From [Phialemoniopsis] sp. UDSM-2020 (Eukaryota; Ascomycota; Sordariomycetes; Thyridiales; Thyridiaceae), in contig JAEILZ010000007.1 in assembly GCA_018873225.1 (NCBI GenBank), forward strand, positions 2,294,001 through 2,358,000: 64,000 bases of DNA, written 5' to 3'. This document shows positions 35,823 through 43,041 of this stretch, one piece after another. Below the pieces are notes generated by a model, which worked only from the letters and a program-made list of their open reading frames with translations, made no database searches and had not been told where the DNA came from. The position numbers and the translations under genes were made by a program. The stretch's first letter is position 1. Every line of letters starts with the position of its first letter.

Positions 35823-36965
35823 ATGGGCTCAAGCAATAGAAAAAAGAAGGAGAAGCAGAAGGACTTTCAGGTAAGGGCGGACATGATGCTGCGCAACATA
35901 GCAAACCGCCGGGGCATTACTAACAAAGAACATGCAGAAAACTAAGCTGAAGGTTGGAAAGGCAAAGGCGAAGGCTTCAAATTTCACAGACACCAGTTTC
36001 AAGTCTAAAGGTATGCTGGGGATTTCCAGGTTTGCACTGCTTCGCTGACAACGCAATACATAGCCATTGTCGTTGCGCAGCAGTCATTGTCTGAAGATGC
36101 GCCACATCCAGCAGAGCAGTTCAAACACAACCTCTCGCTGGCTGCAACATCCCGTTCAGATAGCCAAAGGAAGGATGCGTTAGCCTTCCTGACGGGACAG
36201 CTTTGCGTCAATCCACCCAACAACCCGGTAGGGACACCGGGCGTACTGAACAAGGTGCTTCCCCTTGTGTCTGATGCTTCGGCACCCGTAAGGACGCAGC
36301 TGTTGAAGCTATTCCGCGCGTTGCCCGCTCCGGAAATCAGGCCGGTAGCTGAGAAGATCCTCCTCTATATACGTGCTGGTGTCACGCATCTTTCTGCCGA
36401 GATAAGAGATGATACACTTAGCGTGATGGAGTGGTTACTAGACGTGGCGGGGGAGGAGGTGGTATCTTGTCCAGGAGGGTGGATGAAGACACTCAATAGC
36501 TTCGCTGCCATGATGGGATGGAGCTCCCTTGTTGGTAGTACTGCTGCCAAGTCTTCCAAGGGCTGGACATCGGCGCCGAAGTCCACCTTTGGAGCGTTGA
36601 AGGGCGGTCAGTCGTACGCAAGGCAAATATCAGTCTTGGCCAGATTTCTCGATGTTGGTTTCCACCCCGAGACACGTTCAGTACACGATCCACAGATGTA
36701 CTGGGACAACTTATACCGGGTACCACGGACTACAAACCCATTCGCGCATCTCAATCTCTTCGCTGCCCCTCGAGATGAGGATGGAGAGATGTATGCTGAT
36801 CGAGAAGATCGGCAGCGCGCCTTCTGTCGCAAATGGCGGCCGGTAATGACCAAGGCTGTGGATGAGGCGAAGAGAGAAGGTGGTGCTGTGGGACGAGCGG
36901 CTGCCACGCTCGATCAGGTCTTGAAGGAGGGCCTCGGTGACTATGACGAAACCCCCTCAGATTAA
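35823..36965 (+). CDS. IPI1: Pre-rRNA processing protein Ipi1 (Rix1 complex)
   Basis: Exons 35823-35870, 35938-36010 and 36064-36965 give 340 residues. The basic N-terminus 'MGSSNRKKKEKQKDFQ' joins 'KTKLKVGKAKAKASNFTDTS' and 'FKSKAIVVAQQSLSED', the signature start of Ipi1/TEX10. The middle is the helical-repeat Ipi1 N-terminal domain ('KDALAFLTGQL', 'VLPLVSDASAPVRTQLLKLF', 'EIRDDTLSVMEWLLD'). With Rix1 and Ipi3, Ipi1 helps remove ITS2 and releases pre-60S ribosomes in the nucleoplasm. Intron 1 carries a textbook branch point (ACTAAC near 35920). The two short exons hold the diagnostic N-terminus. The length matches fungal Ipi1, which is shorter than animal TEX10. Confidence 0.92.
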
Positions 36966-38548: not shown

Positions 38549-40675
38549 ATGTCGGGTTGGAACGAAAACGGTAACGCCAGCGGTTGGGGCGCGGGTGACT
38601 CCGCCCAGCCTGCTACCGCTGAGGCCTCGACATTCGATACGGCTGCGCTTGCGGCGGCGGTCCCTAACCAGACCGCTTCCGCCGAGCAGACGGCATCCTC
38701 CGCTAAGGAGGACCAGGGTGATACGAAGGCTGTTGGCTAGGTCCCAGCAGTCCCGTATGACTACACTCAATATGGCGATGCCCCGCAGGCCGAGTCCGGC
38801 AAGGAGAATTGGGAGGGCAACGTCGCCGTCTACGAGTGGGATGGCGAGCAGGGCGACATCGGCCCTGAGTATCCTGACCTGGAGATCCAGCTCTTTGGCC
38901 AGCCCGAGAACCGGGAGTCGTCTGGAATTGACTTTTCCAAGTATGTTCATACGTCTCTGAAGTTTATATTGGTTACTAACTTTTGTAGGATCGCTTCCAT
39001 CGAGCTTCAGCAGGAGGGCCCTGCTCGAGTCAAGCCTGTTGTCGACTTTGACCAGGCCGGTCTGCATCCCGCGATGCGCCGCAACGTGGAGCTCGCTGGT
39101 TTCCAGGTCCCGACTCCTATTCAGATGTATTGTCTGCCTGCCATCAATGATGGCTACGATGTCATCGGCATCGCTCAGACTGGTAAGTACTCATCATCGA
39201 CCCTTGGACCCATTCTTTGTGTTTCTTCGACTTACCATTCCGCTTTAGGATCCGGCAAAACCGCCGCCTATCTGATCCCCATCTTGAACAAGTTGATGGG
39301 CAAGGCGAAGAAGCTGGCTGCGCCCCGTCCCAACCCTGTCACGTTCCGGCCTGGAATTGATCCCCCGGTCCGAGCTGAGCCTCTCGTTGTCATCGTCTGC
39401 CCGACTCGGGAGTTGGCGATTCAGATTTTTAACGAGGCTCGCAAATTCTGCTATCGCACCATGCTTCGGCCTTGTGTGGTGTATGGCGGCGGTCCTATGC
39501 GTGACCAGATTGACCAGCTCGCCAAAGGCTGTGACATTCTGGTGGCCAGCCCGGGCCGACTGATTGACTTCATCGAGCGACCCGGCGTCCTCACCCTTCG
39601 CCGTGTCCGCTACATGGTGATTGACGAGGCTGATGAGATGCTGCACGCGGACTGGGAGGAAGAATTCAACAAGATTCTCTCAGGCGGTGGTAAGCCAAAC
39701 CCCCTCAACCTCTCTGCCCAGTTTTGCCTTTGCTAATCGATACCCTAGAGCAAGAGGAGGGTAACGTGAAGTATCTACTCTTCTCAGCGACCTTCCCGAA
39801 GAAGATTCGGGACTTGGCGAAGACTCACCTCGCCGAGACTCATGTCCGTTTTCGTGTTGGTCGCGCAGGATCCAGCCATGAGAACATCCGCCAGGCGATC
39901 ATCTACGTTGAGGCACCGCAGAAGCGACGTGCTCTAGTCGACTTGGTCAACTCGATGCCGCCTGCTCGTACGATTATATTCGTCAACAACAAGCGTACGG
40001 CGGACGAGCTTGACGACTATTTGTTCAACTTGGGGTACCCGTGCACGTCGATGCACGCCGATCGAACACAGCGCGAGCGCGAGGATGCCATGCGCGCTTT
40101 CCGTCGGGGTGATGCCCCAATTCTGATCACCACCGGTGTTGCCGCCCGTGGTATCGATGTTCGTAACGTCATGCACGTTATCAATTACGATCTCCCGTCT
40201 GCCGACATGGGAGGAATCGAGGAGTACACTCACCGCATTGGTAAGAAGATCAGCCAATTATGAATGTTTGTTCACTCGCTAATCGTACACAGGTCGTACT
40301 GGTCGCATTGGTCACCGCGGTCTGGCCTCGTCGTTCTACTGCGAGGATCGCGATGAGGGTCTCGCGAGTGTTCTCACCCGAACTCTGCTTGAGACCAAGC
40401 AGGAGATTCCGGATTTCCTCCAGCAGCACGTTCCGGAGGGAGAGGCTCGCACCAACCTCAAGTTCGAGGCAGATTCGGACTGGGAGTCGGACGCTGGTGG
40501 TGATGGTGATGGTTGGGGTGCGACCGGTGGTGATGATGGCTGGGGCGCTCCGGCTGCTGGAGGCTGGGGTACTGATGCCCCCGCTGCCGACGGCGACGGC
40601 GGTGCAGCCGACAACGGCAAGGCTGCGGACACCGAGGCTGCCGATGGTTGGGGTAGTGGCGGTGGTGGTTGGTAG
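38549..40675 (+). CDS. DEAD-box ATP-dependent RNA helicase (Ded1/Vasa-like) with in-frame TAG at codon 64
   Basis: Exons 38549-38940, 38989-39182, 39249-39689, 39749-40240 and 40293-40675 make 633 codons before the final stop, of which codon 64 (38738-38740) is TAG. The frame is open for 63 codons before and 67 codons after it within the same exon. All helicase motifs are intact: Q motif 'GFQVPTPIQ' (168-176), AQTGSGKT (193-200), PTRELA, DEAD (321-324), SAT (355-357), and HRIGRTGR (504-511). A Gly/Trp-rich tail (repeated GW, ending GGGGW) follows. Proteins of this kind remodel RNA in translation and mRNP assembly. The sequence around the stop (KAVG-stop-VPAVPYDY) fits a GWV..YDY context, so TGG to TAG is the simplest change. 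Options are editing, read-through, downstream start at Met160, a nonsense allele, or sequencing error. Confidence 0.9.
38728..38752 (+). promoter_or_regulatory. Hairpin presenting the TAG in its loop (candidate A-to-I editing site)
   Basis: Bases 38728-38736 pair with 38744-38752: nine consecutive pairs including two G-U wobbles. The 7-nt loop CTAGGTC (38737-38743) contains the TAG, with its A at 38739 preceded by U. Fungal A-to-I editing during sexual development favours U at -1 and adenosines in hairpin loops; editing here would turn UAG into UGG (Trp). Confidence 0.5.
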
Positions 40676-41685
40676 AGGATCTTTGACCTCTGGTTTCTCT
40701 GCGCTGATTTTGCCCACGACGTCTTCCGGATGCGTGCAGACATTTGTTTGCGCTGCGACTTCTCGCAGTTGGGAGATGACCTGAATGCTATGGGTTCTAG
40801 TGATGCAAGAGTTGAGCCACACCTTGAGAAGTCAATCGGATTTTCGAAAGATTCTCTACAAGCTCGTATAGCCATCTGCTAGACAAGAATTGAGAACGGA
40901 CATGCACTAATACCGAAGGTTCAATCCATGTGAAGGTCGTGTTCTATTGTATACCTAGTCCCAAAGGCGATGATGATACTTGTTCCTCACTCATTACTCT
41001 GTTTGAAAGCTTACAGAACAACAAACGGCCCTTACAGGGACCGAATCTGGCCATTTAGATACGTGCTCGGCAGATGACAATGCAAACAAATGCCTGAGAC
41101 GATGTCAAGTTGGCAGCACAGGGAGGATTGCCGGTGTAGTGGAGTTGATGCCAGCCGAGCCATTTTGCCCCGCTGATACAGTACTTCCTTGTAAGTACAG
41201 TTGAGTCAACTGCGCTGTGGGCGGCTTCACGGAGTCGCAGCTGCCATGTGCCCCGCCTCGCCTGGCCCGCGTTAAATCAGATGTCGCTTCCCGGGAATCA
41301 TGAAATTTCCCTCTCATCTCAAAGAAGTCGCAGAAGGCAAATCCAGGTCAACCCCAACCCAGTTCTCCTTGAGCCGGCCAAGTCGCGATCTAGTACACAA
41401 CTTCTCAAGGTGAGGCATGATTTCCTAACGAGCCACGGATGATTGTGACAAAACCCTGGCTGCCCTCTCTTTGCCGTCCTGCCAGCACTTCCCCATCTCC
41501 GACTGGAGCCGGGGGCCGAGGCTTTGTGCCCACCACTACCCCGATGCACCGGGGCTGCGTTATAGCTCCGGCCATGACACAAATCCATCCTATGGGCAAC
41601 AGAGTCCATCAGTGGATGATATGGCTCAGTCACTTTGCAAGCCAGGAAGAAAATTGCTCGTATCTGAATATCCATTACTGACAAA
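40676..41685. other. Intergenic, no gene seen
   Basis: This holds the 3' flank of the helicase gene and the promoter of the PPCS gene. Overlapping short frames on both strands have no domain support. Confidence 0.5.
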
Positions 41686-43041
41686 ATGACCAGCCTAGCA
41701 ACGGACCTCAGCAAGAGTGACAGCACGCCTTCCCTGTCACTCTCATTCAACTTGTCCGCATCACGGCCACCATCGCCTGTCTCGTCTATCTTCTCCGTCA
41801 ACTCTGATTCGCAGGACAGCATGGCTACTGACCAACATTCGGACATTCCTCCCATGGATCCCAGCACAGTTGCTGAAGACCAGTACTTCAGCGCCAATGA
41901 TCCCCCAAAGGGCTTGGATCGGCACATCTCATTAGCCAGGTCCTTCATCGACTTTCATGCGGCTGCCAACCGTCGAGTCGTGTTGATCACCTCCGGGGGA
42001 ACCACCGTTCCCTTGGAGAAGCAGACAGTGCGCTTTATCGACAATTTCAGTGCCGGTACCCGTGGCGCTACGTCGGCCGAGTACTTCTTAGAGGCCGGCT
42101 ATGCCGTCATTTTTCTGCACCGTCAGTTCAGTCTCCAACCGTACAGTCGGCATTATAGCCATGCGACAGACTGCTTCCTTGACTTCCTGCACGAAGGACC
42201 CGATGGCAATGTTGTTGCGAACCCAGGCTATCAAGACAAGATGCGTGGCGTCTTGCGCAAGTACCAGGCGGCCAAGCAGGGCAACACACTGCTCATGCTG
42301 CCTTTTGTCACCATCACCGACTATCTGTGGGAGCTGCGCGGCATCGCCCAGCTTCTGCGCCCCCTGGGAACCAATGCGCTCCTATATCTAGCGGCTGCCG
42401 TTTCGGACTTCTTCGTCCCCCCTGAGCGCATGGCCGAGCACAAAATCCAGTCTACCGACGCTGCCGACAGCGTTAAGAACGCCGGAGCCAACGCTGCCAA
42501 GGTCGTCGCGGCGCCGGCCCCGCAGGAACAGACGGAGGACGAGGAGACCTTTGACAATTTCGACTCATCCCCTGCCGTACCGCGGTCTAAGCGCTTGATC
42601 GTCGATCTGGATCCTGTTCCCAAGTTTCTCAAGAACCTAGTGGATGGTTGGGCGCCTGAAGGAATGATCGTGTCCTTCAAGCTCGAGACGGATCCCGAAA
42701 TTCTGGTGCACAAGGCCAAGTATTCTCTTGAGCGGTACCAGCACCACCTCGTCATTGGTAACCTGCTCTCCACGCGCAAGTGGGAAGTCGTCTTTGTCGC
42801 GCCAGGTATCCAAGACCGGTGGATCCGCGTGCCCATGGGCCGGCGAAAGAGGACGATCAGTGGTCTGGAGCAGCTAGTGGGTGCGGCGGACAAGAATTGG
42901 ACAGCGGAGGATAGGCCGATGGATCCGGCAGAACTGCCCGAAGGTGATCCGGAGATGGAGATTGAGAGTTTGATCATCCCGGCCGTCGAGGAGTTGCATT
43001 CGAAGCACATCCAAGGCTCGGCAGCAAAAGCTTCCGTTTGA
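41686..43041 (+). CDS. CAB2: Phosphopantothenate-cysteine ligase
   Basis: A single exon of 451 residues. The enzyme joins 4'-phosphopantothenate to cysteine in the second step from pantothenate in coenzyme A synthesis; eukaryotic forms use ATP. The first 75 residues are Ser/Pro-rich. The catalytic fold starts at 'RRVVLITSGGTTVPLE', followed by 'VRFIDNFSAGTRGATSAEYF', 'AGYAVIFLHRQFSLQPYSRH', the internal 'LLYLAAAVSDFFVP' and the closing 'VPKFLKNLVDGWAPEGMIVS' and 'HHLVIGNLLSTRKWEVVFV', all signatures of eukaryotic PPCS. An acidic Ala-rich insert (about 270-300) is a variable loop. A second ATG at 41821 would remove the disordered leader but keep the whole domain, so the true start may be either. 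It is tail-to-tail with the amidase gene (197 bp). Confidence 0.92.
   Translation: MTSLATDLSKSDSTPSLSLSFNLSASRPPSPVSSIFSVNSDSQDSMATDQHSDIPPMDPSTVAEDQYFSANDPPKGLDRHISLARSFIDFHAAANRRVVLITSGGTTVPLEKQTVRFIDNFSAGTRGATSAEYFLEAGYAVIFLHRQFSLQPYSRHYSHATDCFLDFLHEGPDGNVVANPGYQDKMRGVLRKYQAAKQGNTLLMLPFVTITDYLWELRGIAQLLRPLGTNALLYLAAAVSDFFVPPERMAEHKIQSTDAADSVKNAGANAAKVVAAPAPQEQTEDEETFDNFDSSPAVPRSKRLIVDLDPVPKFLKNLVDGWAPEGMIVSFKLETDPEILVHKAKYSLERYQHHLVIGNLLSTRKWEVVFVAPGIQDRWIRVPMGRRKRTISGLEQLVGAADKNWTAEDRPMDPAELPEGDPEMEIESLIIPAVEELHSKHIQGSAAKASV

Follow-up and report, generated by a model that had tools for sequence, protein, structure and literature searches.

The 64-kb stretch of DNA analysed here, referred to as the window, corresponds to C9:2294001-2358000 of a 44.2-Mb genome assembled into 11 contigs. 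It carries a gene for a DDX3/Vasa-like DEAD-box helicase, whose features are collected in Table 1. When spliced, the gene comprises 633 codons, of which codon 64 is the sole internal stop and the other 632 are open. The preliminary description had reported this TAG, the 63 open codons before it, and the intact frame through the later exons, all of which were verified on the sequence.

Table 1. Coordinates of the helicase gene and its parts in the window, and of a kinase locus elsewhere in the genome (C1).
Feature	Coordinates	Strand	Basis or remark
DDX3/Vasa-like DEAD-box helicase gene	38549-40675	+	five exons; splicing, frame, Pfam, relatives
Exon 1	38549-38940	+	
Exon 2	38989-39182	+	
Exon 3	39249-39689	+	
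Exon 4	39749-40240	+	
Exon 5	40293-40675	+	
Coding stretch 5' of the internal TAG	38549-38737	+	motif at about codons 29-39 common to many relatives
In-frame TAG	38738-38740	+	codon 64 counted from the ATG at 38549; Trp column in aligned relatives
Remainder of exon 1, 3' of the internal TAG	38741-38940	+	conserved N-terminal region
Predicted RNA hairpin	38728-38752	+	9-bp stem (two G-U), 7-nt loop CUAGGUC
Intron 1	38941-38988	+	
Intron 2	39183-39248	+	
Intron 3	39690-39748	+	
Intron 4	40241-40292	+	
Regular stop TAG of the helicase gene	40673-40675	+	
NDR-like PUK1/stk-21-type kinase	C1:4065901-4069900	minus	C-D-TAG-TGG-S-I-G in the kinase domain

The Pfam analysis assigned DEAD and Helicase_C domains to the protein, and the motifs PTPIQ, TGSGKT, DEAD, SAT and HRIGRTGR are all present, as in DEAD-box helicases of the DDX3/Ded1/Vasa type. 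The nearest solved structure by sequence is DDX3X, followed by Vasa. The window helicase is thus alike to DDX3X, Ded1 and Vasa in its core sequence, and the Neurospora crassa relative P0038 is alike to them in its predicted fold; the window helicase differs from them in having a fungal N-terminal region with an invariant Trp. Among the relatives listed in two protein searches, no protein is more than 81% identical to the helicase core. The named relatives are filamentous ascomycetes, which, judging from the genus names, we take to be mostly Sordariomycetes with some Leotiomycetes. Among the 53 matches to the window helicase in the genome, only one copy, that of the window, is intact. Another helicase of the genome (C6:1224769), presumably DED1-like, is distinct from it, with 45% identity.

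P0041 is a gene model that annotates IPI1 and a helicase of the window type as a single protein; its IPI1 part matches, with 61% identity across 276 residues, an open reading frame upstream of the window helicase (36009-36965). The adjacency of IPI1 and the helicase in both P0041 and the window means that gene order supports orthology. Downstream of the helicase, a large open frame (41668-43041) is present that presumably encodes a protein resembling phosphopantothenate-cysteine ligase. The regular stop of the helicase is followed by 68 open in-frame codons, and this TAG is a possible stop-loss editing site.

Codon 64 and its Trp column

The internal stop had been proposed to be a UAG that A-to-I editing corrects to a Trp codon, with position 38739 as the candidate edited A. 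The orthologue alignment that we ran bears out Trp as the residue proposed for codon 64: it occupies this column in 119 of 119 aligned homologues, taken from 120 listed, and TAG was found in none of them. The row left out of the alignment (P0057), which is without GSGKT, has Trp too. A second search with the helicase core as query gave 53 further rows, of which 47 contain the Trp motif; the remaining six (P0122, P0123, P0127, P0136, P0142 and P0148) begin downstream of the Trp site and are not judgeable. The Trp at codon 64 is invariant in a 54-row alignment as well. Six other columns among the 100 compared (codons 24-123) are equally invariant, and in the part of exon 1 that follows the TAG the invariant residues in the alignment of relatives are Y95, G102, P106, E112, F116 and G117. 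The fold predicted for P0038 has a mean pLDDT of 79; its Trp is residue 54 and lies in the block 51-60, predicted with a moderate mean pLDDT of 75, after two blocks with values of 44 and 49. This predicted fold offers no reason for the invariance of Trp.

No TAG at codon 64 was found in related species in the protein searches, for which it should be borne in mind that stop-containing gene models are split or mis-spliced in databases. A survey of proteins is blind to other TAG genes directly and is able to show residues other than Trp, of which none appeared. The tblastn search of the stretch following the TAG against plasmids gave no match. In the whole window, 158 in-frame stops have at least 50 open codons on each side, and only the TAG of codon 64 is flanked on both sides by coding-like codon use, a test that is partly circular, as the codon-use table was trained in part on the helicase gene of the window.

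The uninterrupted frame could also be explained by a bypass of the stop that involves no editing, that is, by readthrough, a suppressor tRNA or a downstream start. The frame does continue past the TAG, and fungi are known to read through stops with near-cognate tRNAs. However, readthrough rarely inserts Trp, the residue found in every aligned relative, and no in-frame ATG occurs downstream before codon 160, which lies past the conserved N-terminal region. No tRNA gene of any kind, suppressor tRNAs included, is located within the 64-kb window. We give a bypass of this type only a small chance.

The motif at about codons 29-39 matches many relatives, which shows that coding sequence flanks the TAG on both sides and that no intron is present there. 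The TAG might nevertheless be spliced out alternatively, as a GTAA donor occurs at 38571 and in-frame acceptors occur at 38747 and 38750, and the combination of editing with splicing is reported for FgBUD14 (PMC11156358). The resulting introns would be 177-180 nt long versus 48-66 nt for the other introns of the gene, no YTRAY branch motif is found within 60 nt of the acceptor, and the conserved motif would be deleted together with the Trp, which makes removal by splicing very improbable.

The predicted RNA hairpin

The U at -1 and the hairpin with a 9-bp stem and a 7-nt loop, both described previously, were reproduced by folding. The pairing of 38728-38736 with 38744-38752 is the predicted minimum-energy fold for segments of 31, 41, 61 and 81 nt, with the candidate A as the third base of the loop, directly after U. 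In folds of 31 nt, 307 of the 505 UAG triplets of the window plus strand are inside some predicted hairpin loop; therefore, the loop position alone says little. Six UAGs in these folds, including the one at 38738, are at least as stable, and among the 505 only the UAG at 38738 combines a 7-nt loop with at least nine stem pairs. When 61-nt segments were folded, 172/505 UAGs were in a loop, and six, again including that at 38738, had a stem at least as long. Among shuffled sequences, 13 of 200 folded as well as the hairpin (z = -1.74), which means that its predicted stability is only mildly above that of shuffles.

The anticodon loop of tRNA consists of 7 bases. The usual target of the Tad2-Tad3 deaminase is reported to be A34, which follows U33 of this loop (PMC11169179), and the likeness of the predicted hairpin to A34 in the anticodon arm is striking in its geometry and statistically modest. 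The neighbour preferences reported for Fusarium graminearum are U at -1, C/U at -2, A/G at +1, G at +2, A/G at +3 and A/G at +4 (PMC9600606). Four of these six are matched at 38739 (C at -2, U at -1, G at +1 and G at +2); the remaining two neighbours, U at +3 (38742) and C at +4 (38743), are bases that Fusarium editing disfavours. A loop position, as predicted for this A, is also favoured in Fusarium (PMC9600606).

Decayed copies and the age of the stop codon

Decayed, scrambled and partly tandem copies of the helicase are present at C8:64594-66791 and C5:4382764-4384540. On C8, pieces of exon 1 occur seven times within about 2 kb (64.6-66.8 kb), while the C5 locus consists of pieces of exons 1-4 whose order is changed. 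The codon-64 site is covered by seven copies on C8 and by one on C5, near 4384.2 kb. At this codon the eight decayed copies have TAG (six copies, distributed over both contigs), TAC (one) and CAG (one), and TGG occurs in none; a three-base insertion makes the alignment of copy c6 less certain at this codon. The presence of TAG in six of eight copies and the lack of TGG indicate that the parent gene most likely already carried the TAG when it was copied, where it should be noted that the C8 copies may share one founder and that their count need not equal the number of independent duplications. A recent mutation was ruled out, the TAG being common to copies on two contigs. Tyr as the ancestral residue, hinted at by the TAC of copy c5, was ruled out as well by the Trp column of the aligned relatives.

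A sequencing or assembly error would need to affect one base only; however, the identical TAG is found in the six other copies elsewhere in the assembly, and an error of this kind has next to no chance of being the explanation.

Several copies contain new stops or frameshifting indels, and stops occur in C8_c7; apart from the TAG of codon 64, the window gene has neither. Amino-acid differences between the gene and its copies were compared with the residues of 113 relatives. The window residue was commoner in 62 cases (3 of which were stops in the copies) and the copy residue in 13, with two ties; these counts come from seven aligned segments, some of which cover the same part of the gene and are thus not fully independent. 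By segment, the gene residue prevailed by 29 to 5 in C8_c7 and by 11 to 1 in exons 3-4 of C5, and only the small segment C8_c2a pointed in the opposite direction (gene 1, copy 2). Judged by these residue counts, purifying selection has acted on the window gene since its separation from the copies. The selection on the frame suggests that the full-length protein is needed for function.

These results also bear on the reading of the locus as a gene that is decaying or dead through a nonsense mutation left uncorrected. An uncorrected TAG would leave only 63 residues, and several decayed copies have already arisen from the gene. On the other hand, the TAG is most likely older than the copies, yet the other codons are intact and the residues are kept by 62 to 13, and no further internal stop or frameshift is present in the 633 codons. 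As the TAG is old and the frame and residues have been kept, the gene is unlike one that died with the gain of the TAG, and we consider that pseudogenisation has little chance of being correct.

In five segments, 175 differences between the copies and the gene were counted, with 75 C>T plus G>A changes and 49 A>G plus T>C changes. The decay of C8_c7 shows a clear bias towards C>T and G>A. C>T changes precede A in 9/41 cases and G>A changes follow T in 9/34, and 19 C>T and 15 G>A changes are in CpG. The TpA/ApT ratio is 0.91 for C8, 0.55 for C5 and 0.62 for the window. RIP was rejected as the decay route of the copies, as the changes are not in its CpA context.

Candidate editing machinery and known systems

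The genome was compared with the components of the fungal sexual-stage editing machinery. The Tad2-like deaminase (L052) has the motifs HAEL and EPCVMC, and the Tad3-like one (L058) combines EPCVMC with HSV, which lacks the Glu found in the active enzyme; the other motif assignments of these two proteins are our assumption. Absence of this Glu from Tad3 is reported in PMC11156358. Two DUF726 genes were found, at C5:3853316 and C1:8507983-8509042. The former has Met-Val 29-30 residues before the Ser of GxSxG, and the latter has Leu-Asp at the place of Met-Val. In Ame1 of F. graminearum, Met-Val (MV500-501), which is reported to be decisive, lies 30-31 residues before S531 (PMC11087585). The C1 match to DUF726 (8508560-8509042) contains one TAG, which is either part of an intron or a stop. 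Based on family and motif, genes that look like Tad2, Tad3 and Ame1 candidates are thus present in the genome.

The kinase locus on C1 (Table 1) has a TAG followed by TGG in the kinase domain. In PUK1 the tandem stops are located in kinase subdomain IX, and in N. crassa NCU03242 UAGUGG is edited to UGGUGG (PMC4817773). Among the 120 kinase relatives listed, 17 predicted proteins end exactly at this place, 12 before the first Trp and 5 after it; the rest have DWWS (58), the APE motif without DWWS (24) or no recognisable APE motif (21). The kinase TAG is predicted to be in a small loop in the 31-nt fold and paired at 41 and 61 nt, with no convincing hairpin, so structure does not decide among the UAG codons of this genome. 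The DNA methylase of the RID family is a stop-corrected gene in Fusarium (PMC11156358); all five matches to this family in the genome are uninterrupted by internal stops, which counts against such editing here. Weighed together, these loci make it probable that premature UAG codons undergo sexual-stage correction in this lineage.

We favour, with a probability of roughly 0.7, the reading that the helicase gene of the window is functional, that its codon 64 is encoded as TAG, and that the mRNA is corrected to UGG there by editing of the Tad2-Tad3-Ame1 type, probably in perithecia. The Tad2-Tad3 heterodimer with an Ame1-type cofactor would deaminate A 38739 in the loop of the anticodon-arm-like hairpin, and the resulting UIG would be read as UGG, restoring Trp and allowing the 633-residue helicase to be made; without editing, only a peptide of 63 residues would be produced. 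The expected timing, in developing perithecia, is taken by analogy from PUK1 and further Sordariomycete genes of the premature-stop-correction class, and by the same analogy the full-length helicase may be restricted to the sexual stage. We infer the occurrence of editing, the enzyme responsible and the stage. The proposal that A-to-I editing corrects the UAG at a Trp position has been strengthened by the Trp column, the TAG of the copies, the signs of selection, the machinery-like genes and the PUK1-type TAG, while its claim on the stage is an analogy. Relatives of the helicase occur in many Sordariomycetes, so the protein may be wanted in hyphae too, which counts against editing in the sexual stage.

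A further-reaching proposal, which we regard as tentative and rather doubtful, is that the hairpin is a selected mimic of the anticodon arm, with C-U-A at positions 32-33-34, that lets the tRNA deaminase take the helicase mRNA as a substrate, and that the stop has long been kept as an off-switch confining a DDX3/Vasa-like helicase to the sexual stage. Helicases of the DDX3/Vasa-like class are tied to germ cells in animals.

The strongest rival to sexual-stage editing is editing of the UAG by an agent other than, or additional to, the sexual-stage Tad2-Tad3-Ame1 complex; a deaminase of the OLD type acting under virus attack, or rare editing in hyphae as for CHE1, would be responsible and would yield the full-length helicase outside perithecia. 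Four OTT_1508-type deaminase loci (L059-L062) are present in the genome as OLD candidates of the OLD-ZAO antiviral editing system. OLD proteins are reported to correct UAG with U at -1 in zao transcripts (PMC12754623), and CHE1 is corrected in hyphae (PMC11169179), that is, editing of premature UAG codons is described both in hyphae and in an antiviral context. Nevertheless, OLD proteins are reported to make few edits, mostly in the transcripts of their partner zao (PMC12754623), and no OTT_1508 match lies near the helicase, the one on the same contig being about 320 kb away. We find this alternative unlikely, with an OLD-type deaminase as a possible agent, and editing fits the data better than splicing, readthrough, a downstream start or pseudogenisation.

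The favoured reading, sexual-stage correction of the stop, can be compared with several known systems. In PUK1 of F. graminearum and stk-21 (NCU03242) of N. crassa, UAG is edited to UGG in perithecia (PMC4817773). The helicase is like these genes in having an in-frame UAG with U at -1 in an otherwise intact gene. However, the UAG of PUK1 lies within the catalytic domain of a kinase and is partly shared among species, whereas the UAG of the helicase is in the N-terminal region and has so far been seen in one genome, and its editing is predicted. About 70 other premature-stop-correction genes, e.g., AMD1, FgAMA1, FgBUD14 and FgRID, are reported from F. graminearum, in which UAG to UGG editing is likewise needed for the full-length protein (PMC11156358). 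No helicase is named among them in the part of that paper outside its gene tables, and a limited search of the literature on fungal A-to-I editing, likewise outside supplementary gene tables, returned no report of this helicase. In CHE1 and OLD-ZAO, UAG is corrected by A-to-I editing with U at -1, as proposed for the helicase; the edited genes are zinc-finger regulators and not helicases, and they are edited in hyphae or under virus attack.

If the favoured reading is true, a widely found RNA helicase would join the genes that are stored switched off and turned on by RNA editing. The decayed copies would serve as fossils that date the stop codon, and such dating bears on the question of whether these stops are chance events that editing makes tolerable or persist for the sake of a useful off-state. 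By the testable features of its sequence, the helicase belongs with the premature-stop-correction genes of Sordariomycetes, its editing being predicted.
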